This document shows, piece by piece, positions 14,853 through 38,005 of a stretch of 38,005 nt of DNA. Both the position numbers and the translations under genes were made by a program. The notes beneath the pieces are model-generated. The model was not told the origin of the DNA and searched no databases. It worked only from the letters and a program-made list of their open reading frames with translations. Within the stretch, counting starts at the first letter, position 1; every line of letters begins with the position of its first letter. Source of the DNA: Clostridia bacterium (lineage in GTDB: Bacteria; Bacillota; Clostridia; TANB77; CAG-508); the NCBI GenBank assembly GCA_017528375.1, contig JAFXOY010000079.1, positions 1 to 38,005 on the forward strand. Direction: 5' to 3'.

Positions 14853-14907
14853 TTTCGCAAAGCCTTATAAAATAAGGAAATGTGAAAAAATGAAAAATTA
14901 GAAAAAA

Positions 14908-15023
14908 TGTCCACAGAGGTCAAAATGTCCACAATTCGTCCACGAAATAATAATTTTGAGGACGAGAATTAGAAAAACCTATATAAATCAAGGAAAAATC
15001 TACGTGGACAAACTATGTGGACA
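14908..15023 (+). repeat. Candidate integrase arm-type sites and att region
   Basis: GTCCAC units occur directly at 14908 (TGTCCAC), 14926 (TGTCCAC) and 14937 (CGTCCAC) and inverted at 15004 and 15017 (GTGGACA). Between them lies an imperfect inverted repeat, AATTCGTCC with GGACGAGAATT. Clusters of short oriented repeats at an element end next to int are typical of integrase arm binding. A poly-A rich tract (about 14885-14907) just outside could be the crossover region; I cannot fix the core. Confidence 0.6.
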
Positions 15024-15034
15024 ATGTTATATAA

Positions 15035-15065
15035 ATGTCAGCATTCGTGAATGTTGGCATTTTTT
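15035..15065 (+). terminator. Terminator in front of the integrase gene
   Basis: ATGTCAGCATTC pairs with GAATGTTGGCAT (two G-T pairs) in a 12-bp stem, followed by a T run. It would stop read-through from secA or from beyond the element end before int. Confidence 0.75.
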
Positions 15066-15098
15066 CGTTCACTAAATTATAGTGAAGGAGAGAAAATT

Positions 15099-16409
15099 AT
15101 GGTAAGCGTAAGAAAACGTGGAAAGGTATATGAATACCGATTTGAAATTGCAACAGTTGAGGGAACAAGAAAATGGATATCAAAGTCTGGATATCCAACA
15201 AGACAGGAAGCATTTAAGGAGGGTGCAAAAGCATATAATGATTTTTATTATAATGGTACTAAAACACAGTTAAGAGAAAAAATGTCTTATGCAGACTTTT
15301 TAGATTATTGGGTTGATACTTATGCAAGTTTCAATTTGCATTATTCTACAACAGTAGCATATATAAACATTATAAAGAATCACGTTAAACCTAGAATAGG
15401 TTATTATCAATTATGGCAATTAGATACTAGATTACTTCAAGAATTTATAAATAAGATATATGTTGATTATTCTTTTTCTAAAAATTATATGGCTAGTATA
15501 TTAAAAGTTGTTAAAGGTTCATTAAAATATGCGTGTTATACACTAAATTATATAAATACTAATCCGGCAGAACACGTACACGCACCTAGAATAGATAAAA
15601 TACAAAGCGACCCTGCTCATATTTTTACACAAGAAGAATTTGAGAGAATATTAGAAAGATTTAAAGGGACACATTCAATTTATTATTCATTTTTAACAGC
15701 ATATTATACAGGTATGAGAGTATCAGAAGTATATGGATTAACTTGGGATTGTATTGATTTTGAAAAGAAAACTTTAACAATAAATAAAAATATTATAAAG
15801 AAAAATCAATATGGACTTCCTAAAAGAAAAAGCATAACAAAAGGTCATTCAGTTGGTGTATGGTATTATGGTGATTGCAAGAATCCTCAAAGTAGAAGAA
15901 CAATATCCATTGGAGATACTTTAATAAATGCTTTAAAAGAATATAAAAAAGAACAAGAAGAAAATAGAAAATTTTATGGAGATTCTTATTTATGCTATTA
16001 TGAAAAGAAAGTTCTTAATGAAATTACAAATAGAGAAGAAATTAAATTACTTGAAGCAAAAGCAGAATTAGGAGTTGGATTAAAAGAAGCACAATTAGTT
16101 TTTGTAAAAGAAAACGGACAATTTTTAGGTACTGATTCTCCTAAATATGCCTTTAAAGTTATTCATTATGAATTAGGAATAAATTGTAGATTTCACGATT
16201 TTAGAGATACACACGCAACAAAATTGATAGAAAGTGGTGCTGATATTAAGGCAGTTTCAAAAAGGTTAGGACATTCAACTATTCAAACAACTTATAATAT
16301 ATATGTTAAAGTGACAAATAAAATGGAAAATGATACAGTTAATAAGTTTGAGGAATATACGAATACATTAGAAATACCTAAAACAGTTGAAATGCCATAT
16401 TTAGCATAG
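15099..16409 (+). CDS. int: Tyrosine recombinase (ICE integrase)
   Basis: 436 aa from the ATG at 15099, which has AAGGAG eight bases upstream; an in-frame ATG at 15051 lies inside the terminator hairpin and is less likely. An N-terminal arm-binding domain (about 1-50) is followed by a SAM-like core-binding domain (about 65-165) and the catalytic domain. The expected catalytic set is present: R207 in GMRVSEVYGL, H366 and R369 in HDFRDTH, H392 in LGHST and Y402 in TTYNIY. It should integrate and excise the element. An insert of about 40 residues in the catalytic domain (EKKVLNEITNREE) is like Tn916-type integrases. Confidence 0.95.
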   Translation: MVSVRKRGKVYEYRFEIATVEGTRKWISKSGYPTRQEAFKEGAKAYNDFYYNGTKTQLREKMSYADFLDYWVDTYASFNLHYSTTVAYINIIKNHVKPRIGYYQLWQLDTRLLQEFINKIYVDYSFSKNYMASILKVVKGSLKYACYTLNYINTNPAEHVHAPRIDKIQSDPAHIFTQEEFERILERFKGTHSIYYSFLTAYYTGMRVSEVYGLTWDCIDFEKKTLTINKNIIKKNQYGLPKRKSITKGHSVGVWYYGDCKNPQSRRTISIGDTLINALKEYKKEQEENRKFYGDSYLCYYEKKVLNEITNREEIKLLEAKAELGVGLKEAQLVFVKENGQFLGTDSPKYAFKVIHYELGINCRFHDFRDTHATKLIESGADIKAVSKRLGHSTIQTTYNIYVKVTNKMENDTVNKFEEYTNTLEIPKTVEMPYLA

Positions 16410-16422
16410 GAGAGTGATTAGA

Positions 16423-16569
16423 GTGAAAAATAAAAAAATAAAGTTGCCTATATATAATAATGAGATAGAAATAATAATAAATGCCTTAATTGAGTTTAGA
16501 AATGAAATAATAAAGCAAGGAAGATATGCTAATCCTATTGATGAACTTATTATTAAAGTAAATAAATAG
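16423..16569 (+). CDS. Small ICE protein, paralog of the one before the coupling protein
   Basis: 48 aa, GTG start with GGAGAG nine bases upstream. The stretch YNNEIEIIINALIEFRNEII matches DKYELGILINALNEFRNKLI of the protein at 36301-36504, and ANPIDELIIKV matches TEYVDEVLLRA. The two small proteins therefore belong to one family, placed at opposite sides of the visible ICE. Function is unknown. It follows int by 13 bases and is probably co-transcribed with it. Confidence 0.75.
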   Translation: MKNKKIKLPIYNNEIEIIINALIEFRNEIIKQGRYANPIDELIIKVNK

Positions 16570-16575
16570 CACATT

Positions 16576-16606
16576 TGGACTGATTATAAATAGTCAGTTC
16601 TTTTTT
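16576..16606 (+). terminator. Terminator of the int unit
   Basis: GGACTGATTA pairs with TAGTCAGTTC (two G-T pairs) around TAAA, followed by a run of seven T. Confidence 0.8.
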
Positions 16607-16681
16607 TATGCCAGAAATGGAGTACATAGCCATTTTACTTAATTGTAGAGTGGCTAAATTAAAAAGAAAGGAGGAGAATAT

Positions 16682-17512
16682 ATGCAAGAAAGTAAGTGCA
16701 AGGTAATTGCTATTACAAATCAAAAAGGTGGCGTTGGTAAAACAACAACAACTTTTAATCTAGGAGTAGCATTAGCGAAACAAGGTAAAAAGGTTTTAAT
16801 AGTTGATGTTGATCCACAGAGCAACTTAACTACTTATGCAGGTTGGTACAAAGAAGAAGATTTAAAATATACTTTATCTGATTTGATGGAACAATCAATG
16901 AATGATGAAGAAATTAAAACAAAAGAAAGTATATTACACCACAAAGAGAATATAGATTTGATTCCATCTAGTTTAAATCTATCTGCATTAGAAAACTCAC
17001 TAGCCTATGCTATGAGTAGAGAATACACTTTAAGGAATTGTTTATCTGTTGTAAAAAACGATTATGACTATATCTTATTAGATTGTCAGCCAAGTTTAGG
17101 TATGCTAACTATAAATGCTCTTGCTAGTGCAGATAGTGTCCTAGTTCCTGTGCAAAGTGAATATTTTGCATTAAGAGGAATGACCGATTTATTTAAGATA
17201 ATAAATAAGGTAAGAAGGCAAATAAATCCTACACTAAAAATAGATGGAGCATTTCTAACATTAGTAGATAAAAGGACTAATCTAACAAAAGAAATAGAAA
17301 AACAGATAAAAGACAATTATGGGAGTATATTAAAGTTGTATGATACTAAAATACCTCGTGCTGTTAAAACTGCTGAATCTACTTCGTCTGGGGGAAGTAT
17401 ATTTTCTTATGATAAAAGTGGTGTTGTAGCAGAAGCATATTCTTCGTTGACAAAGGAGGTGCTTGATGATGGCAAAAGACTTATCAAAAATGCCACTGCC
17501 AAAGTTAGATGA
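16682..17512 (+). CDS. parA: ParA-family partition ATPase
   Basis: 276 aa. It has the deviant Walker A KGGVGKTT (residues 15-22), the A' motif DVDPQSNLT and the Walker B-like YILLDCQPSLGML, as in Soj/ParA. With ParB it should segregate or stabilise the excised circular or replicating form of the ICE; it binds DNA non-specifically in its ATP state. The start follows GAAAGGAGGAG. A 32-codon frame (16608-16706) overlaps its start but lacks a ribosome binding site. Confidence 0.95.
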   Translation: MQESKCKVIAITNQKGGVGKTTTTFNLGVALAKQGKKVLIVDVDPQSNLTTYAGWYKEEDLKYTLSDLMEQSMNDEEIKTKESILHHKENIDLIPSSLNLSALENSLAYAMSREYTLRNCLSVVKNDYDYILLDCQPSLGMLTINALASADSVLVPVQSEYFALRGMTDLFKIINKVRRQINPTLKIDGAFLTLVDKRTNLTKEIEKQIKDNYGSILKLYDTKIPRAVKTAESTSSGGSIFSYDKSGVVAEAYSSLTKEVLDDGKRLIKNATAKVR

Positions 17513-18419
17513 CCTTTTTACAACAGAAGAAGAAAGAACTAATGCACAATTAGAAAAAGTTATTGATATAAAAATAAGTGATATTGATGACTTCCCAAAT
17601 CACCCATTTAAAGTCATTGAAAATGATGATATGTATAATATGCGTGATAGTATCAAAGAAAATGGTGTATTAGTACCTGCATTAGTAAGGCAAAAGCCAG
17701 ATGGTAGATATGAAATGGTATCCGGGCATAGAAGAAAATATGCAAGTCAATTAGCAAATAAAGAAACTATACCGTGTATTGTAAGGGATTTAACAGATGA
17801 TGAAGCAATTATCATAATGGTAGATAGCAACTTACAAAGAGAAGAAATACTACCAAGTGAAAAAGCACACGCCTATAAAATGAAATATGAAGCAATAAAA
17901 CATCAAGGTAAACGAACAGACTTAACTTCATCGCCGGTGGCGACAAAGTTGGATAGTGCTTCTATTATAGGTAAAGAAAGTGGAGAAAGTCGTGACCAAG
18001 TTTATAGGTATATGAGTTTAAATAATTTAATACCAGACTTATTAGATATGGTAGATAATGATGTTTTAAAACAAAAACCAAGTATAGCATTAAGACCGGC
18101 AGTAGAGTTATCACACTTAACCGAAGAAGAACAATATCAATTACTTGATTGTATTGAATATTGTGACGCTACCCCATCACACGACCAAGCAATTAGATTA
18201 AGAGCATTGAGTAAATCAAAAACACTTACTCAAAATGAAATTGATAGGATTATGTCAGAAGAAAAACCTAATCAAATCCCACATATCAGTTTCAATGAAA
18301 CAAGAATCAGAAGTGTACTCCCAAAAGAGATAAAGGGAAAAAACATTGAAGATTTTGTTATTAAAGCCATTGAATTTTATGGAAAGCACTTACAAAAACA
18401 AAAATCAATGGAAAGATAA
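17466..18419 (+). CDS. parB: ParB-family partition protein
   Basis: About 317 aa. The ParB N-terminal nuclease/CTPase-like domain (about 25-120) shows KISDIDDFPNHPF, VLVPALVRQKPDGRYEMVSG, HRRKYAS and DSNLQREEILPSEKA. A helix-turn-helix region follows (GESRDQVYRYMSLNNLIPDLL). The frame opens at a TTG (17463) with ATGs at 17466 and 17469 behind AAAGGAGGT, and overlaps parA by about 45 bases, so the two are translationally coupled. It should bind a parS-like site, which I did not find. Confidence 0.93.
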   Translation: MMAKDLSKMPLPKLDDLFTTEEERTNAQLEKVIDIKISDIDDFPNHPFKVIENDDMYNMRDSIKENGVLVPALVRQKPDGRYEMVSGHRRKYASQLANKETIPCIVRDLTDDEAIIIMVDSNLQREEILPSEKAHAYKMKYEAIKHQGKRTDLTSSPVATKLDSASIIGKESGESRDQVYRYMSLNNLIPDLLDMVDNDVLKQKPSIALRPAVELSHLTEEEQYQLLDCIEYCDATPSHDQAIRLRALSKSKTLTQNEIDRIMSEEKPNQIPHISFNETRIRSVLPKEIKGKNIEDFVIKAIEFYGKHLQKQKSMER

Positions 18420-18463
18420 TGGGAGTTTATATTCCACAAATCCCTCCTTACAATCCACCCTAG
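18419..18463 (+). CDS. Possible 14-residue proline-rich peptide
   Basis: The parB stop overlaps an ATG (TAATG at 18417-18421) that opens a short frame, MGVYIPQIPPYNPP, with GGAAAG three bases before it. Such a proline-rich stretch could stall ribosomes, as in a leader peptide. It is just as likely chance. A second short frame (18498-18572, 24 aa, MYKLEIAEMKITKHYARLK) ends in the ribosome binding region of the next gene. Confidence 0.25.
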   Translation: MGVYIPQIPPYNPP

Positions 18464-18577
18464 TATTACTAACTATTTATTACTAACTGAAAAAAGTATG
18501 TATAAATTAGAAATCGCAGAAATGAAAATTACTAAGCATTATGCTAGATTAAAAGTAATCAAAGGAGAGTGATTAGA

Positions 18578-19276
18578 ATGAAAAAAATAGTTTTTAGTAT
18601 TTTATGCACAGTAATAGCAAGTGCAATAGTAGGAGTTAATTCTTTGCTTAACACAACACCAAAAGAGCAACCTAAGGAACAACTAAAACAAGAAACCAAA
18701 ATTGAGCAAGTTGATGAGAAAATAGATACAGAAGATATCGCAGTTAAAGACGAGGAAAATCAAGATGGAATTGTTGAAAAACCAAGTGAAACTGAAAAAA
18801 ATGAAAAATTAGAAACTAAATCAAAATCAACGAATAAACCTAGTTCTTCGGTTAGTAATGTTCCTAAACAAGAAACACCACAAAAGCAAGAAAGTAGTAG
18901 CAATTCAAATGTTGCTTCTACACCACAACAACCTACACAAAATACTACACAAACACCACAACCAAGTTCTAATACACAGAGTAATACTTCTGGACAAACG
19001 AACAAAGTATCAACATCATTTTACGATTCAATAACAGGTGGAAAAAAAGAGTTTAGTTCTGAAAGTGCTTGTTTTGCAAGAGGTACACAAATACAAAATG
19101 CAGAACTAGATTATGTTCTTAATTACAATGAACAACATCCAGAAGCACCAATACAACCAGAAATAAACTATTTTAGATGTTATCCGGTTATTGATGAACA
19201 AGGAGAGGGTTGGTATCTTCATTTCTTTTGCAGAAGTGGAGAGGGATTAGATTCAACACTAAAATCAAAATATTAA
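18578..19276 (+). CDS. Exported protein with low-complexity linker and unknown C-domain
   Basis: 232 aa. A signal or anchor segment (KKIVFSILCTVIASAIVGV) is followed by about 125 residues rich in Glu, Lys, Gln, Thr, Pro and Ser, then a compact C-domain of about 85 residues with cysteines in SACFARG, YFRCYPV and FFCRSG. The layout suggests a surface protein whose domain is held off the membrane. I do not recognise the C-domain. I chose the ATG at 18578 over the GTG at 18569 because AAAGGAG ends at 18567. It sits between the partition genes and the adhesin, so a mating-surface role is possible. Confidence 0.7.
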   Translation: MKKIVFSILCTVIASAIVGVNSLLNTTPKEQPKEQLKQETKIEQVDEKIDTEDIAVKDEENQDGIVEKPSETEKNEKLETKSKSTNKPSSSVSNVPKQETPQKQESSSNSNVASTPQQPTQNTTQTPQPSSNTQSNTSGQTNKVSTSFYDSITGGKKEFSSESACFARGTQIQNAELDYVLNYNEQHPEAPIQPEINYFRCYPVIDEQGEGWYLHFFCRSGEGLDSTLKSKY

Positions 19277-19303
19277 AATGACTCATAAAGAGTCATTTTT
19301 TTA
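19275..19303 (+). terminator. Terminator before the adhesin unit
   Basis: AAAATGACTC pairs perfectly with GAGTCATTTT around ATAAA, then T residues. Confidence 0.85.
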
Positions 19304-19318
19304 TGGAAAGGAACAGAA

Positions 19319-19438
19319 ATGTTAAAAAATATAGGAATAGCACTACTAATTTTGATAGTGCTTTTTTGTTATTCTGCCTGTGTTGTTTCGGGCAGATGTT
19401 CACGAGAGGAGGAAAAAAACAATGAAAAAATGCGTTAA
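19319..19438 (+). CDS. 39-residue single-helix membrane protein
   Basis: The frame starts MLKNIGIALLILIVLFCYSA and ends in a charged tail (REEEKNNEKMR), so it is one membrane helix with the tail outside the bilayer. GAAAGGA lies seven bases before the ATG. It overlaps the adhesin start (19422) by 17 bases, and the adhesin ribosome binding site lies in its tail codons. Small proteins of this kind are common in Firmicutes mobile elements; function is unknown. Confidence 0.6.
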   Translation: MLKNIGIALLILIVLFCYSACVVSGRCSREEEKNNEKMR

Positions 19439-22151
19439 ATATTTTTTAGTAATGTTTGGATTACTAATAGGATTTACTGTTAATGCACACGCTGTTCAAG
19501 CAGCAACTTTAAGTATGAATTATTCTGATTATTGGTATTATAGAGCCCACGGTGATGGAAGTGATGTTCATTCTTGGCATTTTACTCTATATGAAGTAGA
19601 TGGCGAAGTAGCATATTGTATAGAGCCAAATATACCAGAAGGAACAACTTATTCACAAGGTAGTTGGGAACAAACCGGATTATCTAATTCAATTAAAGAA
19701 AGAATACTTTTAATTGGATATTATGGATATACTTATCCGGGACATCAAACACTTGAATATAGAGCAGCAACGCAAGGGTTAATATGGGACACTATTGTTG
19801 GACACGGTGCGCATACAACTTTTTGGACTGCAAGATATGCAAATGGAAGTCAATTTGATGTATCTGCACAACAAGCAGAAATAGAAAGACTTATCTCACA
19901 CCATTACGATAGACCATCATTTAATGGTGGAGTTTATAGATTACAAGTAGGAGAAACTTTAACACTTACTGACACTAATGGAGTATTAGGAAATTATGAC
20001 ATAAGTGTTAATGGAGCAGATTATAATGTTGATGGAAATAATTTAACCATAAAGCCAACAAGAGATGGTGCTATTGATATTACTTTAAGTAAGAAAATGC
20101 CTTATAACTCTGCTTATAAACTATTTGTTGGAGATGGTATTCAAAATATGTATGTACCGGGAACTACTGATCCGGTTATAGCAAAAATACGAGTTAATAG
20201 TTATTATGGAGAGGCTGAAATAACAAAGAAAGATAAAGAAACTAATCAAACAACTCCACAAGGACAAGCAACTCTAAAAAATGCTGAATATGGTGTTTAT
20301 GAACAAGCCACAGGAAAACTTGTGACAACAATTAAAACAGATGAAAATGGATATGGTAAAAGTCCAAAAGTTCTACCTTATAATTCTTATTACTTACAAG
20401 AAATAAATCCTAGTGAGGGTTATTTACTTGATAATACAAAATATAATTTTGATTTAAAAGGTAAAGAAAATGAAAAATTAGATGTATTTGAAACAGTAGT
20501 TAAGAATTATATAAGTATTTTAAAACAATATGAATTTGTAGATGGAGAAACAACTTTCTTAAATGCAGAAAAAGGAATAACATTTGAGATTTATTATCCA
20601 AATGGAGAGAAGTTTGATGAAATAACTACTGATAAAAATGGTTATGCAACAATAAATCTTCCTTATGGTATATGGAAGTTCCATCAAGTTAATTCAACAA
20701 CAGGTTATGAAAAAATTTATGATTTCTTTATAACAGTTGATTATAATTCTGAAAAAGAACAATATTATAATATTTTAAATAATGCTTTATCAGCATATTT
20801 ACAGGTATTTAAAACAGATATAGAAACAGGTAAAACTATTGCATTAGCAAATACTACTTTCAAGATTTTAAATACTGATACTAATCAATATGTTAGTCAA
20901 TATGTTGGTGGAAAGGTTTATAGCGAGTTTTAAACTGATGAAAATGGTAGATTTATATCTTATTTAAAATTAGTTGCAGGAAACTATAAACTAATTGAAA
21001 CAGAAAGCCCACAAGGGTATTTGTTAGATACAAAAGGTTTGAATTTTACTATTGGAGATAATACTCATTATGCTTATACAACTTATGGTCCATTTATTAC
21101 GGTGTATTATAAAAACACACCAATAAAAGGACAAATAGAAATCTCTAAAAGTGGAGAGTTATTTGAAATAGAAGATGATACTTTCAACTATAATGGTAAA
21201 AAATCATTAAAAGGAATTGTTTATAATATCTATGCAGAAGAAGATATTAAATCACCAGATGGTAATCATATTTACTATGAAAAAGGCGATTTAGTAGGAA
21301 CTATGACAACTAATGAAGATGGGTATGCGATAAGTGAAAAACTACCTCTTGGAAAGTATATTGTTAAAGAAGTTCAAACAGATGATGAATATGTACTTGA
21401 TGAAACAGAGTATCATATTGAATTAACAGAAATAGATAACAAAACAGCAGTGGTTTATGATTCACTTGAAATGACCAATATTTTAAAGAAAGGTAAAATT
21501 GAGTTTACTAAAACAGATTTAGTAAATGGCGAAGTAATACCAAATACTATTATAGAAATCTATACCGAAAACAATGAACTAATATTTACAGGAACTACTG
21601 ATAAAAATGGTAAAGTTGTTGTAGATGAATTAAAAGTAGTAAAATACTATGTTTTAGAAAAAGAAGCAGCAACAGGTTATGTTATTACTGATGAGAAAGT
21701 TTATTTTGAAATTAAAGACAATGGAGAAATTGTAAAAGCAGAAATGAAAAATAAACCTATCACAGGAACGGTAGAAATAACTAAACAAGATGTATCTACA
21801 AGTGAACCACTACCAAATACTCTTATAGAAGTTTATAACGATAAAGATGAGTTAGTATTTAGTGGTAGAACAGACGAGAATGGTAAAATCATAATTGAAG
21901 ATTTAAGATATGGAAAATACTATTTCGTTGAAAAAGAAGCACCAGAGGGGTACACTTTAAACCCAGAAAAAATGTATTTTGAAATACTTGAAGAAGGAGA
22001 AATTGTTAAGTGTACTATGGTAGATGAGAAAGTTATTATAGAAGTTCCAAATACAGGAGTAGATGATAATCATATTGCAGAGATATTTGGATCATTACTA
22101 ATTTTAAGTGGAATAGGAGTTATTGTTTATGTTAAAAAGAAAAGAAAATAA
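19422..22151 (+). pseudogene. Thioester-domain SpaA-like surface adhesin, interrupted by a stop codon
   Basis: 910 codons if read through. After a signal peptide (about 1-27, NAHAVQA), a thioester domain shows cysteine 66 in AYCIEPN and glutamine 118 in ATQGLIWD, the pair that forms an internal Cys-Gln thioester used for covalent host or cell binding. Five or six SpaA/Cna-B type domains follow, with E-box motifs (LQEINPSEGY, IETESPQGY, EKEAATGY, EKEAPEGY), then the sortase signal VPNTG, a hydrophobic helix and KKKRK. TAA at 20931-20933 (codon 504) breaks the third repeat domain in frame: EF, stop, TDENG. The frame continues intact, so this looks like a single base change, probably AAA to TAA. 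Without read-through the anchor is lost. Confidence 0.9.
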
Positions 22152-22776
22152 TAATAGTAAAAGTAGAAAGGGTCAACTTATAATAGTTGGCTCTTTTCTT
22201 ATCTTATTAGGAATATCAGTTGTAGGAGGTAAGTATCTTTATAACTATCTTTTAGATAGAGCAGAAGATATTAAAATTGAAGAATTTTATGAAATACAAG
22301 AAACAATAGATGATGAAACTATTGTTGATGAAACACCAACCAAAGAAAAACAAGAAGAAACTAAACAAGATAACACTAATTATATTGCAGTAATTAAAAT
22401 ACCAAAAATAGGACTTGAAAAAGGTTTATGTGAAAAAGGTAGTTATTGCAATAATGTGAATAGAAATATTCAAATATTAAAAGAATCAACTTATCCAGAT
22501 ATAGCAAATGGTAATTTTATATTAGCCGGACACTCTGGAACAGGTAGAGTATCTTATTTTAGAAATCTTAATAAATTATCACAAGATGATGAAGTAAGCA
22601 TTTTCTATCAAGGAAAAGAGTACAAGTATAAAGTTGTTAATATGTATGATATTGAAAAGACAGGTACTGCTAATATCATTAGAAACAAAGAAAAAACAAC
22701 TCTAACTTTAATTACTCGTAGGCATAATACAAATAAACAAATTGTTGTTATCTGTGAATTAGTTGAAACAGTATAG
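22129..22776 (+). CDS. Sortase lacking the catalytic cysteine
   Basis: 215 aa. An N-terminal membrane anchor (IIVGSFLILLGISVVGG), an acidic stalk and a sortase beta-barrel (IAVIKIPKIGLEKGL, NFILAGHSGTG with histidine 135) are clear. At the place of the usual TLxTC motif the sequence reads TLTLITRRHNTNKQ, with arginine 197 (CGT at 22717) instead of cysteine. One T-to-C change from TGT would explain it. The other cysteines (CEKGSYC and VIC) are not at the active-site strand. It overlaps the adhesin end by 23 bases and should have anchored that adhesin. As read, it should be inactive. Confidence 0.85.
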   Translation: MLKRKENNNSKSRKGQLIIVGSFLILLGISVVGGKYLYNYLLDRAEDIKIEEFYEIQETIDDETIVDETPTKEKQEETKQDNTNYIAVIKIPKIGLEKGLCEKGSYCNNVNRNIQILKESTYPDIANGNFILAGHSGTGRVSYFRNLNKLSQDDEVSIFYQGKEYKYKVVNMYDIEKTGTANIIRNKEKTTLTLITRRHNTNKQIVVICELVETV

Positions 22777-22788
22777 GAGGGTTAGACT

Positions 22789-23022
22789 ATGGATAACAAA
22801 TATAATCTTAATCAAATAACAAAAGCATTAGAAAAGTTATTTGGTGCAGGATTTAATACTGATAAGAAAATTCTAGCAATGAAACTAGAAGATTTAGTTA
22901 AGATGGGAACTCTAACATCTTCTGAAATATCAATAATAATTGATTTTAGAACAGCAGTTAAAAACAAACAAATAACTGCTTTTTTAAGTGGATATAAAGA
23001 GAAAGGAAATGAGCGCAAATGA
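22789..23022 (+). CDS. Small ICE hypothetical protein
   Basis: 77 aa, hydrophilic and probably helical (NLNQITKALEKLF, MKLEDLVKMGTLTSSEIS). It starts after TAGGAGGG and overlaps the next gene by four bases (ATGA). I recognise no domain. It lies between the sortase and the helicase in one apparent operon. Confidence 0.7.
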   Translation: MDNKYNLNQITKALEKLFGAGFNTDKKILAMKLEDLVKMGTLTSSEISIIIDFRTAVKNKQITAFLSGYKEKGNERK

Positions 23023-23213: not shown

Positions 23214-23224
23214 GAGGAATTATA

Positions 23225-30764: not shown

Positions 30765-30777
30765 TTATTAAAGTATG

Positions 30778-30816
30778 AGAGTGATTTTAGGTAAAACTAT
30801 TATCACTCTTTTTTTT
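30778..30816 (+). terminator. Terminator after the helicase gene
   Basis: AGAGTGAT (30778-30785) pairs with ATCACTCT (30802-30809), followed by a long T run. Confidence 0.85.
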
Positions 30817-30839
30817 ATTTTATAGAAAGGATTGATACT

Positions 30840-31181
30840 ATGGAAGAAAAAATAAGAGAAGAATTGTATGAAAAATTATCACTAGAATATGATACTTTTA
30901 TTGAAGAAGTTAAAAAACTATCACCAGAAAAAATCATTGATAAATCTTATGAAAAAGTTATGAAAGAAGAATTAGTTTCAATGTTTTATCCGGAAAGTGA
31001 ACAATATGACATTAGTGATATTAAAGCACTTAATAAAAGTGAAAGTCCTCTTGAAGAATTATATCAAGGTTGGATGGATGAAGATAGTGGTATTCATCAA
31101 GCACTTGAAAGTAGTGTTGAAACAACAATAGATTTCTTAAAAAAAGAACAAAAAAGTAAGAATAAAGATTTAGAAAGGTAG
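30840..31181 (+). CDS. DUF3848-like protein
   Basis: 113 aa. The pattern LYEKLSLEYDTFIEEVKKLSP followed by EKIIDKSYEKVMKEELVSMF matches DUF3848, which appears in Firmicutes ICEs beside the SNF2-methylase and Toprim genes. Acidic and helical; function unknown. GAAAGGA precedes the ATG. It begins a new unit after the terminator. Confidence 0.75.
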   Translation: MEEKIREELYEKLSLEYDTFIEEVKKLSPEKIIDKSYEKVMKEELVSMFYPESEQYDISDIKALNKSESPLEELYQGWMDEDSGIHQALESSVETTIDFLKKEQKSKNKDLER

Positions 31182-31191
31182 GTAATAAATT

Positions 31192-32151
31192 ATGGCTTAT
31201 TATCAACCCGAAGAAATACAAAAGGCAAAAGAAATGGATTTGTTAACTTATCTACAAAACTATGAGCCAGATGAATTAGTGCATTTTAGTAGAGGAACTT
31301 ATATGACTAGAACACACGATAGTTTAAAGATAAGTAATGGTATGTGGTATTGGTTTTCAAGAGGAATAGGAGGAAAAACTGCATTAGAATATTTAATCCA
31401 AGTAAGAGATTATTCTTTTATTCAGGCAGTAGAAACAATTTTAGGTTATTCAAACGAAAGACCACCAATAACATATCAACAACCTAAAAAAGTACAAAAT
31501 ATAAGACTTATTTTGCCAAAAAAATCAGACTCAACTGATAGAGTTATTAACTATCTAACAAGTCGTGGAATTGATAAAGATATTATTAGTGAGTGTATAG
31601 ATAATCATTTGATTTATGAAGATTTGCCTAATCATAATGTTGTATTTGTTGGTTATGATAAAAACAAAATTCCAAGATATGCAGGAGTAAGAGCAACAAA
31701 TGATAGTAGGTATATGAAAGACGCCTATGGAAGTCATAAGGCTTTTTCTTTTAAATTAGATTCAATAATACAAAGTGATACAGTACACTTATTTGAGAGT
31801 GCTATTGATTTATTATCATACGCTACACTTAATAAATTAGATAACAAAGAATGGTATAATGATAATTTACTTTCACTTGCCGGAGTATATCAACCGGCTA
31901 AAAAAATAGATGAAAGTAAGATACCATTAGCATTAAATTACTATCTAAATCAGAATCAGAATATTAAAAAAATATATCTTCATTTTGATAATGATAGTGC
32001 AGGAAGAATAGCAACGATGGCACTTAAAACTGTTCTCCCAAAACAATATGAAGTCATTGATGATCCACCAAAAGTTGGAAAGGATTTCAATGACTTTTTA
32101 TGTGCCAAATTAGGAATAAATTATAAAAAAAGATATGAAAGAGAGAGATGA
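31192..32151 (+). CDS. DUF3991/Toprim primase-like protein
   Basis: 319 aa. The N-terminal part (DSLKISNGMWYWFSRGIGGKTALEYL) resembles the CHC2-like primase region without a cysteine/histidine zinc site. The middle is DUF3991-like (YLTSRGIDKDIISECI, YAGVRATND). The Toprim part has HLFESAIDLLSYA and the acidic metal motif LHFDNDSAGR. It probably primes or assists replication of the transferred strand or the excised element. Its stop overlaps the next start (ATGA at 32148-32151). Confidence 0.85.
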   Translation: MAYYQPEEIQKAKEMDLLTYLQNYEPDELVHFSRGTYMTRTHDSLKISNGMWYWFSRGIGGKTALEYLIQVRDYSFIQAVETILGYSNERPPITYQQPKKVQNIRLILPKKSDSTDRVINYLTSRGIDKDIISECIDNHLIYEDLPNHNVVFVGYDKNKIPRYAGVRATNDSRYMKDAYGSHKAFSFKLDSIIQSDTVHLFESAIDLLSYATLNKLDNKEWYNDNLLSLAGVYQPAKKIDESKIPLALNYYLNQNQNIKKIYLHFDNDSAGRIATMALKTVLPKQYEVIDDPPKVGKDFNDFLCAKLGINYKKRYERER

Positions 32152-32684
32152 AAATTATGAAATTTAATTATTTAAAGTTAGCAGAAATTATTAAAACAAG
32201 AAGAAATGAATTGGGTATTTCAACAAGAAAACTTGCTGAAAAAATAGGTATAAGTCACGCCGAAATATCAAGATTTGAGAATGGATTAAAACCAAGTTTT
32301 TATTTCATTCCGTTTGTAAAAATGTGTAAGGAATTAGATTTAGACCTTATGGATTTGTTAATTGAAGTTGGACTTTTAGATGAAACAACTGATAAAAAAT
32401 ATATAGTAAAAGTCACAAATGTTGATGATGATTTTTTTGAAATTGAAGCAAGAAATGAAAAAGAAGCAGCAACGATTGTAGGAAATTTTATTATCAATAA
32501 TGACATCATTGAAATAAATACAGATAAGCCTATTGACTTTGAAGTTGAAGAAATACAAGAAGAAATTGACGATGAAAATTCTGATAAAGATAAAGAATTA
32601 GACGCAGAATCTTTTATGAAAATGCAATGTGAAAATTGCGAATATTATTGTCCATATTGTGGCGAGTGTACTTTTGGGGAATAG
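32148..32684 (+). CDS. XRE regulator with DpnD/PcfM-like and cysteine-cluster domains
   Basis: 178 aa. Residues about 10-70 form an XRE helix-turn-helix (LGISTRKLAEKIGISHAEIS, RFENGLKPS). Residues about 85-140 (YIVKVTNVDDDFFEIEARNE) resemble the DpnD/PcfM fold seen in the protein at 23019. An acidic stretch leads to a C-terminal cluster, CENCEYYCPYCGEC, that could hold zinc or a redox-sensitive centre. The gene is coupled to the Toprim gene by ATGA. It lies just before the candidate oriT and mobilisation genes, so it may control transfer. Confidence 0.8.
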   Translation: MKIMKFNYLKLAEIIKTRRNELGISTRKLAEKIGISHAEISRFENGLKPSFYFIPFVKMCKELDLDLMDLLIEVGLLDETTDKKYIVKVTNVDDDFFEIEARNEKEAATIVGNFIINNDIIEINTDKPIDFEVEEIQEEIDDENSDKDKELDAESFMKMQCENCEYYCPYCGECTFGE

Positions 32685-32690
32685 AACTTA

Positions 32691-32764
32691 TGTCTAGCCA
32701 GCACTGAATTCATACTCCCGTACGAATTCGTTTGTGGGGAAATCCCCAATCCCCTTGCTAGACA
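32691..32764 (+). other. Candidate oriT / structured GC-rich element
   Basis: TGTCTAGC (32691-32698) pairs with GCTAGACA (32757-32764), closing a fold with two inner elements: GAATTC with GAATTC (32706-32711 and about 32723-32728), and GGGG with CCCC around AAAT (about 32736-32747). This three-way layout and its G/C runs stand out in AT-rich DNA. It lies immediately upstream of DUF3789, MobC and relaxase genes, where oriT is expected. No T run follows, so it is not a simple terminator. A conserved RNA is the alternative. Confidence 0.55.
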
Positions 32765-32797
32765 AAACTTGATATTAAAGAAAGGAAGATGATAGAA

Positions 32798-32971
32798 ATG
32801 AGTGAATTATTATTTTTTATTTTAGGTTTAATTATAGGAGGACTTGGTATGACAACTTTAATGTGTTGCTTACAAGTGAATCGTGTTAATGAACTTGAAA
32901 GACAAATAGTATTAAGACCAGACACTAACGAAGATAATTCGGAGGTGGTTGAATGCGAAGTAGAAGAATAA
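32798..32971 (+). CDS. DUF3789-like small membrane protein
   Basis: About 57 aa: one hydrophobic helix (LLFFILGLIIGGLGMTTLMC) and a short acidic tail. This is the DUF3789 pattern found next to mobilisation genes. An ATG at 32789 is too close to AAAGGA, so I chose 32798. It overlaps MobC by 19 bases, and the MobC ribosome binding site lies in its tail. Confidence 0.65.
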   Translation: MSELLFFILGLIIGGLGMTTLMCCLQVNRVNELERQIVLRPDTNEDNSEVVECEVEE

Positions 32972-33282
32972 AAAAACAAATCTGGCTTAATGATGACGAA
33001 GATTATATTATGAAATGTAAATCACAAGCAGTAGGTATGAATAGTTCAGATTATATTAGACATTTAATTGTGGGTTATAAGCCAAAAGAAAAACCATCAG
33101 AACAATTTTATGAAGATATAAAAGGTATTCGCAATATAGGAAATAATATAAATCAAATAGCCAGAATTGCAAATGCAAAAGGAATTATTGATGTGCCACA
33201 TTTAAAGAAAGAAATTGATAAGTTAGACCAACTTATTATTGAAATAAAAAATAAATATCTTCGTCCAGACAGAGAAGAATAA
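32953..33282 (+). CDS. mobC: MobC-like relaxosome accessory protein
   Basis: 109 aa. It has a ribbon-helix-helix-like start (KKQIWLNDDEDYIMKCKS), then MNSSDYIRHLI and the MobC hallmark GIRNIGNNINQIARIAN (about 57-73). MobC-type proteins bind oriT and help the relaxase open the DNA. GGAGGTGG precedes the ATG, and the relaxase starts 12 bases after the stop. Confidence 0.88.
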   Translation: MRSRRIKKQIWLNDDEDYIMKCKSQAVGMNSSDYIRHLIVGYKPKEKPSEQFYEDIKGIRNIGNNINQIARIANAKGIIDVPHLKKEIDKLDQLIIEIKNKYLRPDREE

Positions 33283-33293
33283 AGGAGTGTGAA

Positions 33294-34646
33294 ATGGCAA
33301 CAACAGGAATATGGAAAATTGAAAAAAGATTAGATAATGTTTTAGACTATACAACTAATATTGAAAAAACAATAAATAGTGAATATGGTAAAGATAGTTA
33401 TTATGATTTGCATAATGTTATTGATTATGTAGAAGCAGATTATAAAACTGAAAAACAATTTTATGTGTCTGGTGTTAATTGTAATCCTAAAACTGCACTT
33501 GAAGAAATGACTATTACAAAAGAACAATTTGGAAAGACAGGTGGAATACTTGGCTTTCACGCATTTCAATCTTTTGCAGAGGGAGAAGTCACACCAGAAC
33601 AATGCCACGCAATAGGTGTTAAATTAGCCGAAGAAATGTGGGGAGATAGATTTGAAGTTGTTGTCAGTACACATCTTAATACTAATCATTATCATAATCA
33701 CTTTGTAATAAACTCTGTATCGTTTAAAGACGGTAAAAGGTATTATGATAAGCGAGATACTTATGCAGAGTTAAGAAGAATATCAGATTCTTTATGCGAA
33801 GAATATGGATTATCAGTTATACAAGAAAAGCCTTGTAGAAATAGTAAGATTAACTTTGCTAATTATCAAAAAGATTTTAATAATAAAGTTAATTATTATT
33901 CTATTGCAAAAGAAGATTTAGATAGAGCAATAGGTATGGCTACTTCTTATTATGACTTTGAAGATTTAATGAAAGCAATGGATTATGAACTTATTTATAG
34001 AGGAGATAAGTTAAGTATAAGAAGAAGTCCATATAAGAAAAATATTCGTATTGAAAGATACTTCGGTAATGAATATTCTATTGAAAGAATAAAACAAAGA
34101 ATTGATGAAGAATATATCAAACGAGTACCTTTTATAGAAGAATATGGAAACAAAAAAAGATATAATGCTAATCATTATAAAAGGCGAAAGCCGAAAGGAT
34201 TTTATGCTTTATATATTCACTATTGTTATCTATTAAGAGTATTCCCCAAAAAATATCCTTATCAAAAATTATCTCCTGCAATTCGTGCTGATGTACGAAA
34301 GATGGAGCAAATATCAAATGAAACAAGACTGCTTGTCAGAAATAATTTAAAAACTGACGAGCAGTTTTTTTTGTTTAAAGAAGATAAAGAAAAAAGACTT
34401 AATGACATTATGGATCAGAGAAGTAAACTCTGGTACAAGCATAAGAAGTCAAAGTCCAAACAAGAAAAGGAAGAAATTAAGAAACAAATAGATGAATTAA
34501 ATAAAGAAATAGAGCCAATACGAAAGGAGGTGGTGCTATGTAAAGATATTATAGAGAGAAGTAAGAAGATGGAACAAAATCTTCAAGAATTATCTGATGA
34601 AAAAGACCAAACAAAGGAGGTAGAGAAAAATGAACACATCAGGTGA
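33294..34646 (+). CDS. MobP-type relaxase
   Basis: 450 aa. The relaxase domain lies in the first 200 residues. The histidine motif THLNTNHYHNHFVINSVSF gives H127 and a metal triad around H132, H134 and H136; tyrosines near residues 19 and 40 are nucleophile candidates. The C-terminal part is lysine-rich and coiled-coil-like. It should nick oriT and lead the strand to the coupling protein. It ends 17 bases inside the next gene, whose AAAGGAGG lies in its own codons. Confidence 0.92.
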   Translation: MATTGIWKIEKRLDNVLDYTTNIEKTINSEYGKDSYYDLHNVIDYVEADYKTEKQFYVSGVNCNPKTALEEMTITKEQFGKTGGILGFHAFQSFAEGEVTPEQCHAIGVKLAEEMWGDRFEVVVSTHLNTNHYHNHFVINSVSFKDGKRYYDKRDTYAELRRISDSLCEEYGLSVIQEKPCRNSKINFANYQKDFNNKVNYYSIAKEDLDRAIGMATSYYDFEDLMKAMDYELIYRGDKLSIRRSPYKKNIRIERYFGNEYSIERIKQRIDEEYIKRVPFIEEYGNKKRYNANHYKRRKPKGFYALYIHYCYLLRVFPKKYPYQKLSPAIRADVRKMEQISNETRLLVRNNLKTDEQFFLFKEDKEKRLNDIMDQRSKLWYKHKKSKSKQEKEEIKKQIDELNKEIEPIRKEVVLCKDIIERSKKMEQNLQELSDEKDQTKEVEKNEHIR

Positions 34647-35394
34647 CGCTGCTGAATCTATTGTAAGAATGAGTTTGCAAGGTTTAGAAGTGGCAGTAAA
34701 ACTTTCTGGAAGTGGTGCAAAAAATGTTGCTGCAATAATGATAGCAATGTTAAAAGACCAAAAGCAAACAAAAGGTAAGACTAGACTTACTAATATGCTT
34801 AAATCCGGAAAAGAATTAAAAGTATTTACTGTTAAAGAAGAAGATTTAAGAAAGTTCACAGAGGAAGCAAAACGATATGGTGTACTATTTTGTGCCTTAA
34901 AAGGCAAAGGAAAAAGCCTTGATGGAATAGTTGATATTATGGTAAGAGCAGAAGACGCAAGTAAAATAAATCGTATTGTTGAAAGATTTAATCTTGCTAC
35001 TGTTGATACGGCTTCTATTAAAAGTGAAATTCAAAAATCAAAAGACAGTAAAGACAAAGGTGTTGTTATTAAAAGTGTTGAGGAAAGACTTGTTGATGAT
35101 ATTTTATCTAAACCAATAAGTAAGGAGGAAAATGATATGTCAAACCCCCAAGTGGCAAAGACGGAAAAAAACCCTCCGTCAGAGCCTATCTTAAACAACA
35201 AAAACAAGTCAGACAAGGGTACTAAATCAGAAAAACCATCTGTTAGAGAAGAAATAAAATCTATTAAAGAAGAACAAAAGAAAGAGAGAGATTTAGATAA
35301 GTCTGAACTTAAAAATGAAAAGACTCAACCTAATAGAACAACAAAACACAAACAACCAAAATCAAAAAAGAAAAAATCAAAGGAAAGAGGGTAA
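34630..35394 (+). CDS. PcfB-family (DUF3801) protein
   Basis: 254 aa. Residues 1-130 match PcfB/DUF3801: DAAESIVRMSLQGLEVAVKL, GAKNVAAIMIAML and FCALKGKGKSLDGIVDIMV. The rest is a lysine/serine/glutamate-rich tail ending KSKKKKSKERG. PcfB of plasmid pCF10 binds DNA and the relaxase and helps deliver it to the VirD4-type ATPase. Its place between the relaxase and the coupling protein fits that job. Confidence 0.85.
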   Translation: MNTSGDAAESIVRMSLQGLEVAVKLSGSGAKNVAAIMIAMLKDQKQTKGKTRLTNMLKSGKELKVFTVKEEDLRKFTEEAKRYGVLFCALKGKGKSLDGIVDIMVRAEDASKINRIVERFNLATVDTASIKSEIQKSKDSKDKGVVIKSVEERLVDDILSKPISKEENDMSNPQVAKTEKNPPSEPILNNKNKSDKGTKSEKPSVREEIKSIKEEQKKERDLDKSELKNEKTQPNRTTKHKQPKSKKKKSKERG

Positions 35395-35400
35395 AAGAAT

Positions 35401-36291
35401 ATGAATGATTTTGATGATATTATGGCAAAAGCCAATGGGAATGATACTCAAACGAAAAAGCCTTTTGATAAAAATGCTTGGGTAGAAAAGAAACAACAAG
35501 AAAGACAAGAAGTATATGATTTAATGGATAAAACAGCAGATGAAGTTAAGGTAGATATTGATAAGTACAAACAATATTTAGATGTTCAAGGTAGATTTGA
35601 TAAATACTCTGTTGGTAATGCACTTGTTATATCTGCAAGTCTTCCTACTGCTACACAATTAAAGGAGTTTACTGATTGGAAAGAAGCAGGTGCTTTCATT
35701 AAAAAGGGAGAAAACGGAATTAAAATATTAGAGCCGGGCGACCCTTATACAAGAGCAGATGGAAGTTCTGGTATTTCTTATAATGTTAAGAAAATGTTTG
35801 ATATATCACAAACAACTTCTAATCAAAAACCTAGAACTATAAGTTATGATGACAGAGTTAAATTGACTGCTCTGTTAAAAGATTGTCCTGTTGATATTAA
35901 AGCAGTAGATGAAATACCTAACAGTAATAATGTTGTAGAGTGGAATAAAGAAGATAATGCTTTATATGTTCAACGAGGAGGAGGAGAAACAGAAATATTC
36001 AAACAACTTGCAAAAGAATTGACAAGAGTTGGATTAGAAGAAACAGGAAATAGTGAATTAGATAATTTTAAATGTTCTTCTACTGCATATATGCTTTGTA
36101 AAAAATATGGAATAGATGTATCAAATATTAACATCAATTCTATTCCAGAAGCATTTAAGAATATGAGTGCTAGTGAAGTAAGAAATGAATTAACTTCTAT
36201 GCGTAGTGCTATGGAAGATATAAATACTAGAATGAGTGCATACTTTGAAACTATTTCAAAGACACCAAAAAATAAAGAACACGAGAGATAG
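35401..36291 (+). CDS. ArdC N-terminal domain-like protein
   Basis: 296 aa. Residues about 55-110 show the ArdC ssDNA-binding-like pattern: FDKYSVGNALVISASLPTAT, then FTDWKEAGAFIKKGENGIKI. Full ArdC proteins carry a metallopeptidase HExxH; here the matching region reads IFKQLAKELTRVG, so that activity seems lost. ArdC-type proteins coat the incoming strand and counter restriction. The start is six bases after the PcfB stop. The end (GAGAGATAGGAGG) supplies the next ribosome binding site. Confidence 0.75.
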   Translation: MNDFDDIMAKANGNDTQTKKPFDKNAWVEKKQQERQEVYDLMDKTADEVKVDIDKYKQYLDVQGRFDKYSVGNALVISASLPTATQLKEFTDWKEAGAFIKKGENGIKILEPGDPYTRADGSSGISYNVKKMFDISQTTSNQKPRTISYDDRVKLTALLKDCPVDIKAVDEIPNSNNVVEWNKEDNALYVQRGGGETEIFKQLAKELTRVGLEETGNSELDNFKCSSTAYMLCKKYGIDVSNININSIPEAFKNMSASEVRNELTSMRSAMEDINTRMSAYFETISKTPKNKEHER

Positions 36292-36300
36292 GAGGAACTT

Positions 36301-36504
36301 ATGAAAGACGAGATTAAAGTGTTGGAACTTGATAAATACGAATTAGGTATTCTAATCAATGCTTTAAACGAGTTTAGAAATAAACTTATTAAAGAGGGAA
36401 AGGAAACAGAATATGTAGATGAAGTTTTATTAAGAGCCATAGATGCCCCACCAAAAAAAAAAGTTCTCACAAGGTGTTTGAGGAGAGATGAACACAGATA
36501 CTAA
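36301..36504 (+). CDS. Small ICE protein with a slippery A10 tract
   Basis: 67 aa as read. Residues about 10-45 (LDKYELGILINALNEFRNKL, YVDEVLLRAID) match the small protein at 16423. Ten A residues (36453-36462) follow the APP codons. One extra A, or a -1 slip, would move the frame to end ...VFEER at a TGA that overlaps the coupling-protein ATG. As read, the frame runs 17 bases into that gene. The true end is therefore uncertain. Confidence 0.65.
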   Translation: MKDEIKVLELDKYELGILINALNEFRNKLIKEGKETEYVDEVLLRAIDAPPKKKVLTRCLRRDEHRY

Positions 36505-38005
36505 ATATCCAAAGTGGGTGTATTGTATTGGACTAATACCTACGATATGGTTAGCACTTTTAATTGCACCGTCAGTAAATGGAGGATTGCCAAAAGTTAT
36601 AAAGGATTTTTCTGATATACTTGGTAATCCTTTTCATATTACTTGGTGTGGAGATTCATTAAAGACAATAATAGTATTGATAATCGCTTATGTAATGGCT
36701 ATTACAATTTATTTATCTACTAGAAAAAACTATCGTAGGAGAGAAGAACACGGCTCTGCAAAGTGGGGTAATGCAACCGAGATAAATAAAAAGTACAAAC
36801 AAACCCCAATGGAAAACAATAAATTACTAACTCAAAATGTATGTTTAGGACTTAATGGTAAAAAGCATAGAAGAAACTTAAATGTATTAGTATGTGGTGG
36901 TAGTGGTGCAGGTAAAACAAGATTTTATTGTAAGCCTAATGTTATGCAATGTAATACTTCAATGGTAATTCTTGATCCAAAAGGAGAAATTGTAAGAGAT
37001 ACAGGTGCATTGCTAAAAAAGAAAGGTTATGAAGTTAAAGTATTGGATTTAATCAATATGGAAAAATCACATTGTTATAATCCTTTTGTTTATTTAAAGA
37101 GTGATAATGATGTTCAAAAGTTAGTCACAAACCTTTTTAAAGCAACTACACCAAAAGGAAGTCAAAGCAATGATCCATTCTGGGACACTGCTGCAAGTAT
37201 GCTATTATTAGCACTTGTTTTTTATTTGAAATATGAAGCACCAGATGATGAGCAGAACTTCCCAATGGTAATGGAATTATTAAGAGCAGGAGAAGTACAC
37301 GAAGATGATGACACTTATGTAAGTCCATTAGATGTATTATTTAATAGATTAGAAGAAAGAGAGCCAGAGCATATTGCAGTTAAGTATTATAGAGATTATC
37401 ACTCTGGTAGTGCTAAAACTCTTAAATCTATTCAAATTACACTTGCAGCAAGATTAGAAAAGTTCAATCTTGAAAGTCTTGCGTCTTTAACTGCAACTGA
37501 TGAATTAGATTTGCCATCATTAGGAGAAAAGAAAACTGCATTATTTGCACTTATACCAGATAACGATACAAGTTTTAATTTCCTAGTTAGTATTTTATAC
37601 ACGCAACTGTTTCAACAGTTGTTTTTTTTAGCAGACCATAAGTATGGAGGAAGTCTTCCTGTTCACGTTCATTTTGTTATGGACGAGTTTGCTAATGTAA
37701 GTTTGCCAGATGATTTTGATAAGATACTTTCTGTTATGCGTTCAAGAGAAGTATCAGTATCTATCATTTTACAAAACCTAGCACAATTAAAAGCCTTATT
37801 TGAAAAACAATGGGGAAGTATTATAGGAAACTGTGATGAGTTTTTATATCTTGGTGGTAATGAACAATCAACGCATAAGTACGTATCAGAGTTATTAGGT
37901 AAAGAAACTATTGACACTAATACCTATGGAAAATCAAGTGGTAGAAGTGGAAATTACTCTACTAATTATCAAATAAGTGGTAGGGAATTATTAACTCCGG
38001 ATGAA
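36488..38005 (+). CDS. VirD4/TraG-type coupling protein, 3' end outside the window
   Basis: 506 codons are open to the window edge with no stop. Two N-terminal membrane helices (about 9-27 and 58-78) lead to the motif EEHGSAKWG. The ATPase domain has Walker A GGSGAGKT (137-144) and Walker B HFVMDEFANV (aspartate 399, glutamate 400). The VirD4-type strand MVILDPKGEIVRDTG and the late motif SVMRSREVSVSIILQNLAQL are also present. It couples the relaxase-DNA complex to the type IV secretion channel. GAGGAGAG precedes the ATG. About 100 or more C-terminal residues should be missing. Confidence 0.93.
   Translation, partial: MNTDTKYPKWVYCIGLIPTIWLALLIAPSVNGGLPKVIKDFSDILGNPFHITWCGDSLKTIIVLIIAYVMAITIYLSTRKNYRRREEHGSAKWGNATEINKKYKQTPMENNKLLTQNVCLGLNGKKHRRNLNVLVCGGSGAGKTRFYCKPNVMQCNTSMVILDPKGEIVRDTGALLKKKGYEVKVLDLINMEKSHCYNPFVYLKSDNDVQKLVTNLFKATTPKGSQSNDPFWDTAASMLLLALVFYLKYEAPDDEQNFPMVMELLRAGEVHEDDDTYVSPLDVLFNRLEEREPEHIAVKYYRDYHSGSAKTLKSIQITLAARLEKFNLESLASLTATDELDLPSLGEKKTALFALIPDNDTSFNFLVSILYTQLFQQLFFLADHKYGGSLPVHVHFVMDEFANVSLPDDFDKILSVMRSREVSVSIILQNLAQLKALFEKQWGSIIGNCDEFLYLGGNEQSTHKYVSELLGKETIDTNTYGKSSGRSGNYSTNYQISGRELLTPDE

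Follow-up and report, generated by a model that had tools for sequence, protein, structure and literature searches.

Why does a stretch of 23 kb lack several short DNA words altogether, while the sequence directly beside it carries them at ordinary density? The question is raised by a contig of 38,005 nucleotides from a Clostridia bacterium (JAFXOY010000079.1 of assembly GCA_017528375.1), here called the window. It is one whole contig of a 1.99-Mb genome assembly (187 contigs, 92% complete, 8% contaminated). Judged by its genes, the right-hand part of this window belongs to an integrative and conjugative element (ICE), with a tyrosine integrase, a MobA/VirD2-type relaxase and a coupling protein, which we take to be Tn1549-like. 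An earlier prediction, made from the sequence of the window, held that the palindromes CATG, AGCT and TCGA are missing from this element as restriction targets lost under long selection. We found that the absence is real, that it covers a much wider and specific list of words, that it stops at the ends of the element, that it has been kept up after relatives diverged and that the list switches from lineage to lineage. Very probably, long and ongoing purifying selection during conjugative spread has kept the ICE free of targets for Type II restriction.

Word counts in the element and in its host

Exact counting gave no CATG, AGCT or TCGA in positions 14853-38005, compared to 19, 41 and 13 in positions 1-14852. 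The original prediction had put the left-side numbers at 19, about 40 and about 12, and the seven CATG positions quoted in it were all recovered. The whole visible ICE, from position 14823 to the contig end at 38005, was also found to lack CTNNAG, ATTAAT, GGCC, CGCG and CCGC/GCGG, and to contain two CTNAG. The six motifs CATG, AGCT, TCGA, CTNAG, CTNNAG and ATTAAT have 150 sites left of the putative attachment core. This density predicts 235 in the visible ICE; the actual number is 2.

Expectations were obtained from 500 codon-preserving shuffles of the 17 ICE genes in frame (21,405 coding bases). The shuffles, a check proposed together with the prediction, gave means of 32.7 CATG, 43.6 AGCT and 29.9 TCGA and minima of 20, 22 and 17, never near the observed 0 for each. 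For the 12,300 coding bases left of the ICE the observed 17, 39 and 10 fit the means of 21.0, 33.6 and 10.1. Three other host contigs hold 956 sites of the three words in 140 kb, with a largest gap of 1,188 bases. Codon choice follows the absence: histidine before a G is encoded by CAC all 25 times in the ICE, as had been claimed, compared to 2 CAC and 11 CAT on the left side.

The claim that other palindromes are present, and the loss therefore specific to three words, was found to be too simple. Relative to the same shuffles, GATC (12 vs 51) and ACGT (6 vs 25) are strongly depleted in the ICE, while GTAC (33 vs 49), AATT and TATA are mildly depleted. GGCC and CGCG are absent at expectations of merely 4.8 and 3.2; in a sequence as A+T-rich as the ICE (GC 0.298), some G+C-rich words are scarce in any case. 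TGCA (97 vs 101) and TTAA (248 vs 247) are untouched and CTAG (39 vs 49) nearly so, and for TGCA and nearly for CTAG the claim stood. CCGG is commoner than the null in the window ICE (23 vs 8.5), yet it is absent from the stretches of two relatives, L030 and L034.

The list of three words proved too short. We scanned 1,416 motifs (4-mers, 5-mers, and plain, degenerate and gapped palindromes) greedily against codon shuffles, each new motif being scored solely on occurrences not overlapping motifs already accepted. The following 17 motifs were called in the window ICE (observed/expected):

CTNNAG 0/70, AGCT 0/35, CATG 0/32, CTNAG 1/34, TCGA 0/28, ATTAAT 0/27
RAATTY 21/68, AGATC 4/33, ACTGG 0/16, GTAAC 0/15, GATGC 2/19, CCTTC 3/21
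AACGT 3/20, GAGAC 0/13, GAACC 2/18, CCGC 0/9.5, CCTGA 3/14.5

About a dozen restriction-type words are absent or nearly absent from the sequenced part of the ICE. The host genes left of it gave no motif, three host contigs gave 1, 1 and 0, and contig C166 (54.7 kb) gave none at a slightly stricter threshold. A chance scarcity arising from composition, codon usage or amino-acid content is hardly credible: low G+C content accounts for the small expectations of GGCC and CGCG, but the shuffles never fell below 17-22 for CATG, AGCT and TCGA, host genes yield 0-1 motifs in the identical scan, and L026, a largely collinear relative of 74% DNA identity, holds 25 CATG, 30 AGCT and 14 TCGA in 22.8 kb.

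Several asymmetric words were lost from both strands. This applies to GATGC (1/13.8; its complement GCATC 0/7.9), ACTGG (0/12.2; CCAGT 0/6.5), GAACC (1/13.2; GGTTC 1/7.4) and GTAAC (0/8.4; GTTAC 0/8.6). GAGAC is absent (0/12.5), and for GTCTC (0/1.9) the expectation is too small for a verdict. Depleted but not absent are GGTGA (6/21.4; TCACC 2/5.5), CATCC (1/3.0; GGATG 4/11.9), CCTTC (0/6.0; GAAGG 3/17.9) and CCTGA (0/12.7; TCAGG 3/10.4). Selection against palindromes or hairpins while the transfer DNA is single-stranded can practically be dismissed: ICEs move as a single strand and many of the purged words are palindromic, but TGCA and TTAA are untouched, CCGG is enriched and asymmetric words are purged.

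The purged words look like restriction sites rather than structural features. Thirteen asymmetric pentamers were called in the clade, and four that contain a depleted palindrome (AGATC, AACGT, ACGTA and TCGAA) were dropped. Six of the remaining nine (ACTGG, GATGC, CCTTC, GAGAC, GGTGA and CATCC) occur in a list of 24 Type IIS and Type III sites among 512 classes (P = 4e-7), a list compiled after the words were known.

Upkeep after divergence and lineage-specific lists

Of 186 relatives the best 80 were kept, representing 79 distinct loci, of which 38 were tabulated. The closest fifteen (L023-L025, L027-L035 and L037-L039) have protein identities of 73-97% to the window. We asked how synonymous differences between relatives bear on the purged words by re-dealing the partner's codons 200 times, within each amino acid, over the positions where the two differ synonymously. 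Between the window and L030 (7 genes, 4,680 codons) there are 991 synonymous differences. These created no new site of the six motifs compared to a null sum of about 35, with null means of 2.2 for CATG, 7.0 for AGCT, 5.0 for TCGA, 3.9 for CTNAG, 11.9 for CTNNAG and 5.0 for ATTAAT, and 0 observed for each. The null minima were 2 for AGCT, 1 for TCGA, 5 for CTNNAG and 2 for ATTAAT.

L034 (2,702 codons) and L035 (3,092 codons) agree with L030, except for CTNNAG in L034, which stands at 14 compared to a null of 14.6 while the other five motifs are at 0. CTNNAG is therefore not selected against in L034, which serves as an internal positive control. The closer L033 (626 differences) has 1 CTNAG compared to 2.2 and 2 CTNNAG compared to 8.1, and L026 is near the null for all six motifs. 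The absence of sites is kept up by ongoing selection. A single ancestral loss, merely inherited and under no present selection, is very unlikely. It would account for the members of the clade having much of the list in common, and the null-level sites of the nested L026 indicate that selection can lapse; it is disfavoured by the 991 synonymous differences without a new site and by the agreement of L034 and L035.

In the aligned cores of the closest fifteen relatives CATG was absent from 12, AGCT from 9 and TCGA from 8. Among those that retain sites, L024 has most (18), followed by L028 (17). In L024 a site-free SNF2 gene adjoins site-bearing segments of just 85% identity, a mosaic that suggests recombination with an element that had not been purged. 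L026 and L036 are both largely collinear with the window at 73-74% DNA identity, and L036 has 10 CATG, 15 AGCT and 8 TCGA. Over 8.4 kb, L023 from a Bacilli metagenome-assembled genome (MAG) and L031 from an isolate of Anaerofustis stercorihominis have 99.5% identity; provided that the MAG was binned correctly, this suggests a recent transfer across classes. Because so many cloning sites are missing, a synthetic or cleaned vector was also considered as the source of the sequence. It was ruled out, since many MAGs and an isolate, obtained in several studies, carry variants that differ in their sites.

The greedy scan called 15 motifs in L030, 12 in L034, 19 in L033, 12 in L035 and 13 in L025. 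In the outgroup ICE L026 it gave four weaker calls (GATC, AACGT, AAGCT and CCGC). L224, a 14-kb stretch from the L034 genome, gave 8 motifs, and CTNNAG was not included.

Sister lineages purge different sets of words. A tree was made from 74 SNF2 proteins of 82 candidates, eight without an open reading frame (ORF) over 1,500 amino acids having been dropped, and words were counted per gene. A mostly Lachnospiraceae group was found to have 0-1 GGCC compared to about 19-28 expected, L069 has CATG 1/16 and L094 has ATTAAT 0/14. In G032:C9 (L141 and L142), another ICE of the family, CTNNAG is at 0/83 in 30 kb of coding sequence and the other five core words were uncalled. G005:C17 has CTNAG 4/44, GAGAC 0/17 and CATG 13/46. 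The locus L054 from Sporofaciens musculi, taken whole with its element ends unset, gave 21 motifs led by GGCC 0/64 and CGCG 1/65, and it shares with its relatives a second purge list that includes CACGG/CCGTG (0/40).

Borders and genes of the element

The last forbidden site left of the ICE is at 14809, 14 bases before the putative attachment core at 14823. The absence had been proposed to mark the edge of the ICE, and the edge does coincide with it; it lies at the putative core inside secA and not at the secA stop. The features of the visible element are as follows.

14823..14834, + strand: putative attL core AAAAAGTACAAA within the 3' end of secA, left border of the zone without sites
14823..38005, no strand: visible ICE, the contig ending at 38005
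15051..16409, + strand: tyrosine integrase (PF00589, PF14659)
16682..17512, + strand: ParA-like ATPase (PF13614)
17463..18419, + strand: ParB-like protein (PF02195)
18532..18676, no strand: the only CTNAG sites that the motif count gave for the visible ICE, two in number (18532 and 18672)
19380..22776, + strand: surface-protein block, a thioester/SpaA protein in two ORFs and a sortase (PF08341, PF17802, PF04203)
23589..30764, + strand: SNF2 helicase/DarB-like antirestriction protein of 2391 amino acids with a methylase-like segment (PF00176)
31192..32151, + strand: DUF3991/Toprim protein (primase-like)
32953..33282, + strand: NikA/MobC-like relaxosome protein (PF21983, PF05713)
33294..34646, + strand: relaxase of MobA/VirD2 type (PF03432, 140 bits)
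34630..35394, + strand: DUF3801 protein (PF12687)
35401..36291, + strand: ArdC-N-like protein (21.7 bits, just below the family cut-off of 22.6)
36488..38005, + strand: VirD4/TraG coupling protein, cut by the contig end (PF02534)

The best phage-family match of the SNF2 protein is phrog_10089, a DarB-like antirestriction family (1657 bits), and a weak PF07669 stretch lies at 26529-26753 within its gene. The thioester/SpaA protein, split between ORFs 19380-20933 and 21021-22151, corresponds to one ORF of 910 amino acids in the G038 genome and is possibly interrupted in the window. The KilA-N gene at 4909-5781, left of the ICE, holds 4 AGCT, 1 TCGA, 1 CTNAG and 4 CTNNAG and no CATG or ATTAAT. 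The absence had been taken to show that the KilA-N cassette is of different origin; the gene does lie outside the purged element and carries sites, and these counts say nothing on where it came from.

The contig stops inside the VirD4 gene, and the left part of the ICE is what is visible. A VirB4-type ATPase was not found in the window, whose contig stops inside the ICE; the complete relative described below has a TraG P-loop/AAA_10 protein. A 10-kb query from the G038 element, used to look for the right half, had no match in the genome of the window, G000 (one genome; 40 of 330 first-look candidates scored). As the right half was not recovered, statements on the whole element rest on relatives.

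A complete ICE was found in the genome that contains L030 (G038, of whose ICE L030 is part), on the 127-kb contig C3. It begins at 4972, within the 3' end of secA, and extends to a direct repeat of 14 bp at 58341. The 14-bp repeat is present at both ends, and both encode the same SecA tail of 13 residues. From the positions in the window (14823), in G038:C3 (4972 and 58341) and in L033, the ICE appears to use the secA 3' end as its attachment site. In the G038 assembly the host secA is represented by two ORFs (2244-3797 and 3817-5001) just left of the ICE.

The complete ICE of 53.4 kb has no CATG or TCGA, 1 AGCT, 3 CTNAG, 1 CTNNAG and 1 ATTAAT, which is six sites, and no GGCC, CGCG or CCGC/GCGG. 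The nearest sites of the six motifs outside it are at 4958 (left side) and 58379 (right side), so that sites resume within 25 bases of the end repeats. A site-free stretch is therefore a practical marker of the element, ending within about 25 bases of it in one complete case. At a stricter threshold 22 motifs were called in this ICE, including CATATG, CAATTG, ACTAGT, ATGCAT, AGTACT and GAANNNNTTC; ACTGG is purged in the window and free in G038. The element carries a bacteriophage exclusion (BREX) system as cargo, with BrxA, BrxB, BrxC, PglX, PglZ and BrxL (L218:758-14285, G038:C3 at about 40.8-54.3 kb). Nine motifs were called in the 15-kb cargo stretch alone, and the BREX set is purged of the same words as the ICE.

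The agent of selection and known systems

The reading of the absence as restriction targets lost under long selection was well supported by the scans, the post-divergence test, the lineage-specific lists and the Type IIS matches. The clearance would have been achieved largely via synonymous codon choice. An ICE presumably enters the recipient as a single strand whose complement is made there, so the new duplex would be unmodified, and each target would be an independent chance of cleavage before methylation. In an element visiting many hosts with many Type II systems, this would lead to near-complete loss of each target, and new sites would be weeded out. The DarB- and ArdC-type genes of the ICE may protect against other systems (Type I), in which case it would fall to mutation to remove the Type II targets.

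Several observations weigh against this explanation. Matches to PF00145, PF02086, PF01555 and PF07669 in this genome pointed to one recognised restriction system, of the Sau3AI family, with the endonuclease beside a C5 methylase in G000:C135 (L238). The family, which we take to be specific for GATC, was also found in G009. GATC is depleted, not purged, in host genes (8 vs 17.6, codon shuffle) and in the ICE, and a GATC enzyme would explain this depletion in both but not the zero words. The proposed check of host restriction genes for these specificities therefore recovered one system in this genome and no enzyme cognate to any of the fully purged words. In favour of the explanation, the host genus carries varied Type II systems, with EcoRV-family enzymes in G009 and G005 and an NgoFVII-C-like one in G009. 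ICEA, which we take to be NlaIII-like and specific for CATG, was found in three of the 287 order genomes, once uninterrupted, once with an internal stop and once as a partial match that also has a stop; among 398 genomes of the phylum none had a match over the cut-off. RE_TaqI was over the cut-off in none of the 287, and RE_Alw26IDE was found in one of them, broken by stops. These searches for CATG, TCGA and GAGAC used one Pfam endonuclease family per specificity, and the negative is weak because several unrelated families are possible for each.

The other points on this side come from the sequences themselves. All three words are at zero in merely five of the fifteen aligned cores (L030, L031, L034, L035 and L039). 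L026 and L036, which carry sites, are nested on an unresolved fork in an otherwise purged clade of 17 rows, so the purge was lost there or gained more than once. In the window/L030 test the null minima of CATG and CTNAG, taken singly, were also 0. For the G+C-richer L069 the scan called words unlike targets (CCAG, GCTA and TAGA), and lists from G+C-richer loci are accordingly less clean. Two phage-like contigs of the host genus are just partly depleted: G005:C25 in AGCT (24/85), GATC (15/52) and CTNAG (13/40), and G000:C91 (L277 and L278), from the same host, in AAATTT (12/48), CTNAG (13/35) and MGTACK (1/15). As an independent witness of avoidance this partial depletion is suggestive, not decisive. 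Finally, PMC11602122 expects a relatively low overall effect of restriction-modification on plasmids in nature.

Another sequence-specific agent would be BREX, a Type IIG or Type III system, or methylation that upsets the regulation of the element itself. A BREX system is aboard the G038 relative, and we know of no simple Type II endonuclease for CTNNAG, GAACC or CCTGA. CTNNAG is described as the specificity of M.Eco57I, which serves a Type IIG enzyme (PMC3874165), as fully methylated (N6-methyladenine, m6A) in Mycoplasma dispar (PMC6385981) and as partially methylated in a giant virus of algae (PMC12700378). Because of the first two reports CTNNAG is to be regarded as a real modification target. 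Against such an agent, six of the nine called pentamers match Type IIS sites of the above list, both strands are affected and the coding sequence as a whole is purged. We consider this explanation improbable, and retain selection by Type II enzymes. Since cognate enzymes were scarce in the searches, we infer these enzymes as the agent, and conjugation as the bottleneck, from the words and their distribution.

It is rather probable that the sequence of this ICE family is a lineage-by-lineage archive of the restriction systems it must pass, with entire specificities cleared over tens of kilobases and gained and released singly. Switching one at a time is suggested because CTNNAG is free in L034 and ACTGG is free in G038 but purged in the window. 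The list would then predict endonuclease specificities, such as those for CTNNAG, GAACC and CCTGA, in uncultured bacteria. Two questions come within reach of a test: which restriction systems truly limit conjugation in natural communities, and whether one can work back from the sequence of a mobile element to its host range and to the enzymes of unculturable bacteria.

Target avoidance is a known strategy (PMC6286503, PMC10359461, PMC12707154), and the novelty of the present case lies in its degree. A literature search, with subscription papers mostly outside its coverage, gave no report of such site purging in an ICE. DarB-like proteins (named after the PHROG family) and ArdC of R388 (PMC7213743) have counterparts here: a very large DarB-like protein and an ArdC-N-like one, both encoded by the ICE. 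Such proteins give protein-based protection and do not explain missing sites; they may explain why sites were lost mainly with respect to Type II systems.

For prokaryotic viruses Rusinov 2018 (PMC6286503) describes avoidance of recognition sites as a 'No sites, no DNA cleavage' strategy. The strategy is the same here, in an integrated conjugative element and for a dozen or more motifs simultaneously. The plasmids RP4, R388 and RIP113 are given as having 1 EcoRI site compared to 7, 5 and 9 expected (PMC11602122), and the same source cites added sites as increasing restriction. They are conjugative and depleted like the ICE; theirs is one target with a handful of sites expected, whereas here hundreds are expected over many motifs.

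Plasmids are reported to be depleted of Type II targets, in a manner linked to broad host range (Shaw, Rocha, MacLean 2023, PMC10359461), and the ICE is likewise a mobile element depleted of such targets. In that study, avoidance is mainly of 6-bp targets and mainly in small plasmids, and 4-bp palindromes show no difference between plasmid and core genes. Unlike those plasmids, the ICE has lost 4-bp and degenerate targets completely across 23 kb, and its 53-kb relative almost completely. Large plasmids are described there as adapting primarily through gene carriage, short targets being harder for them to avoid. The purged ICE carries antirestriction-like genes as well, and at least a dozen targets have been cleared simultaneously from the 53-kb element, which also carries such genes.

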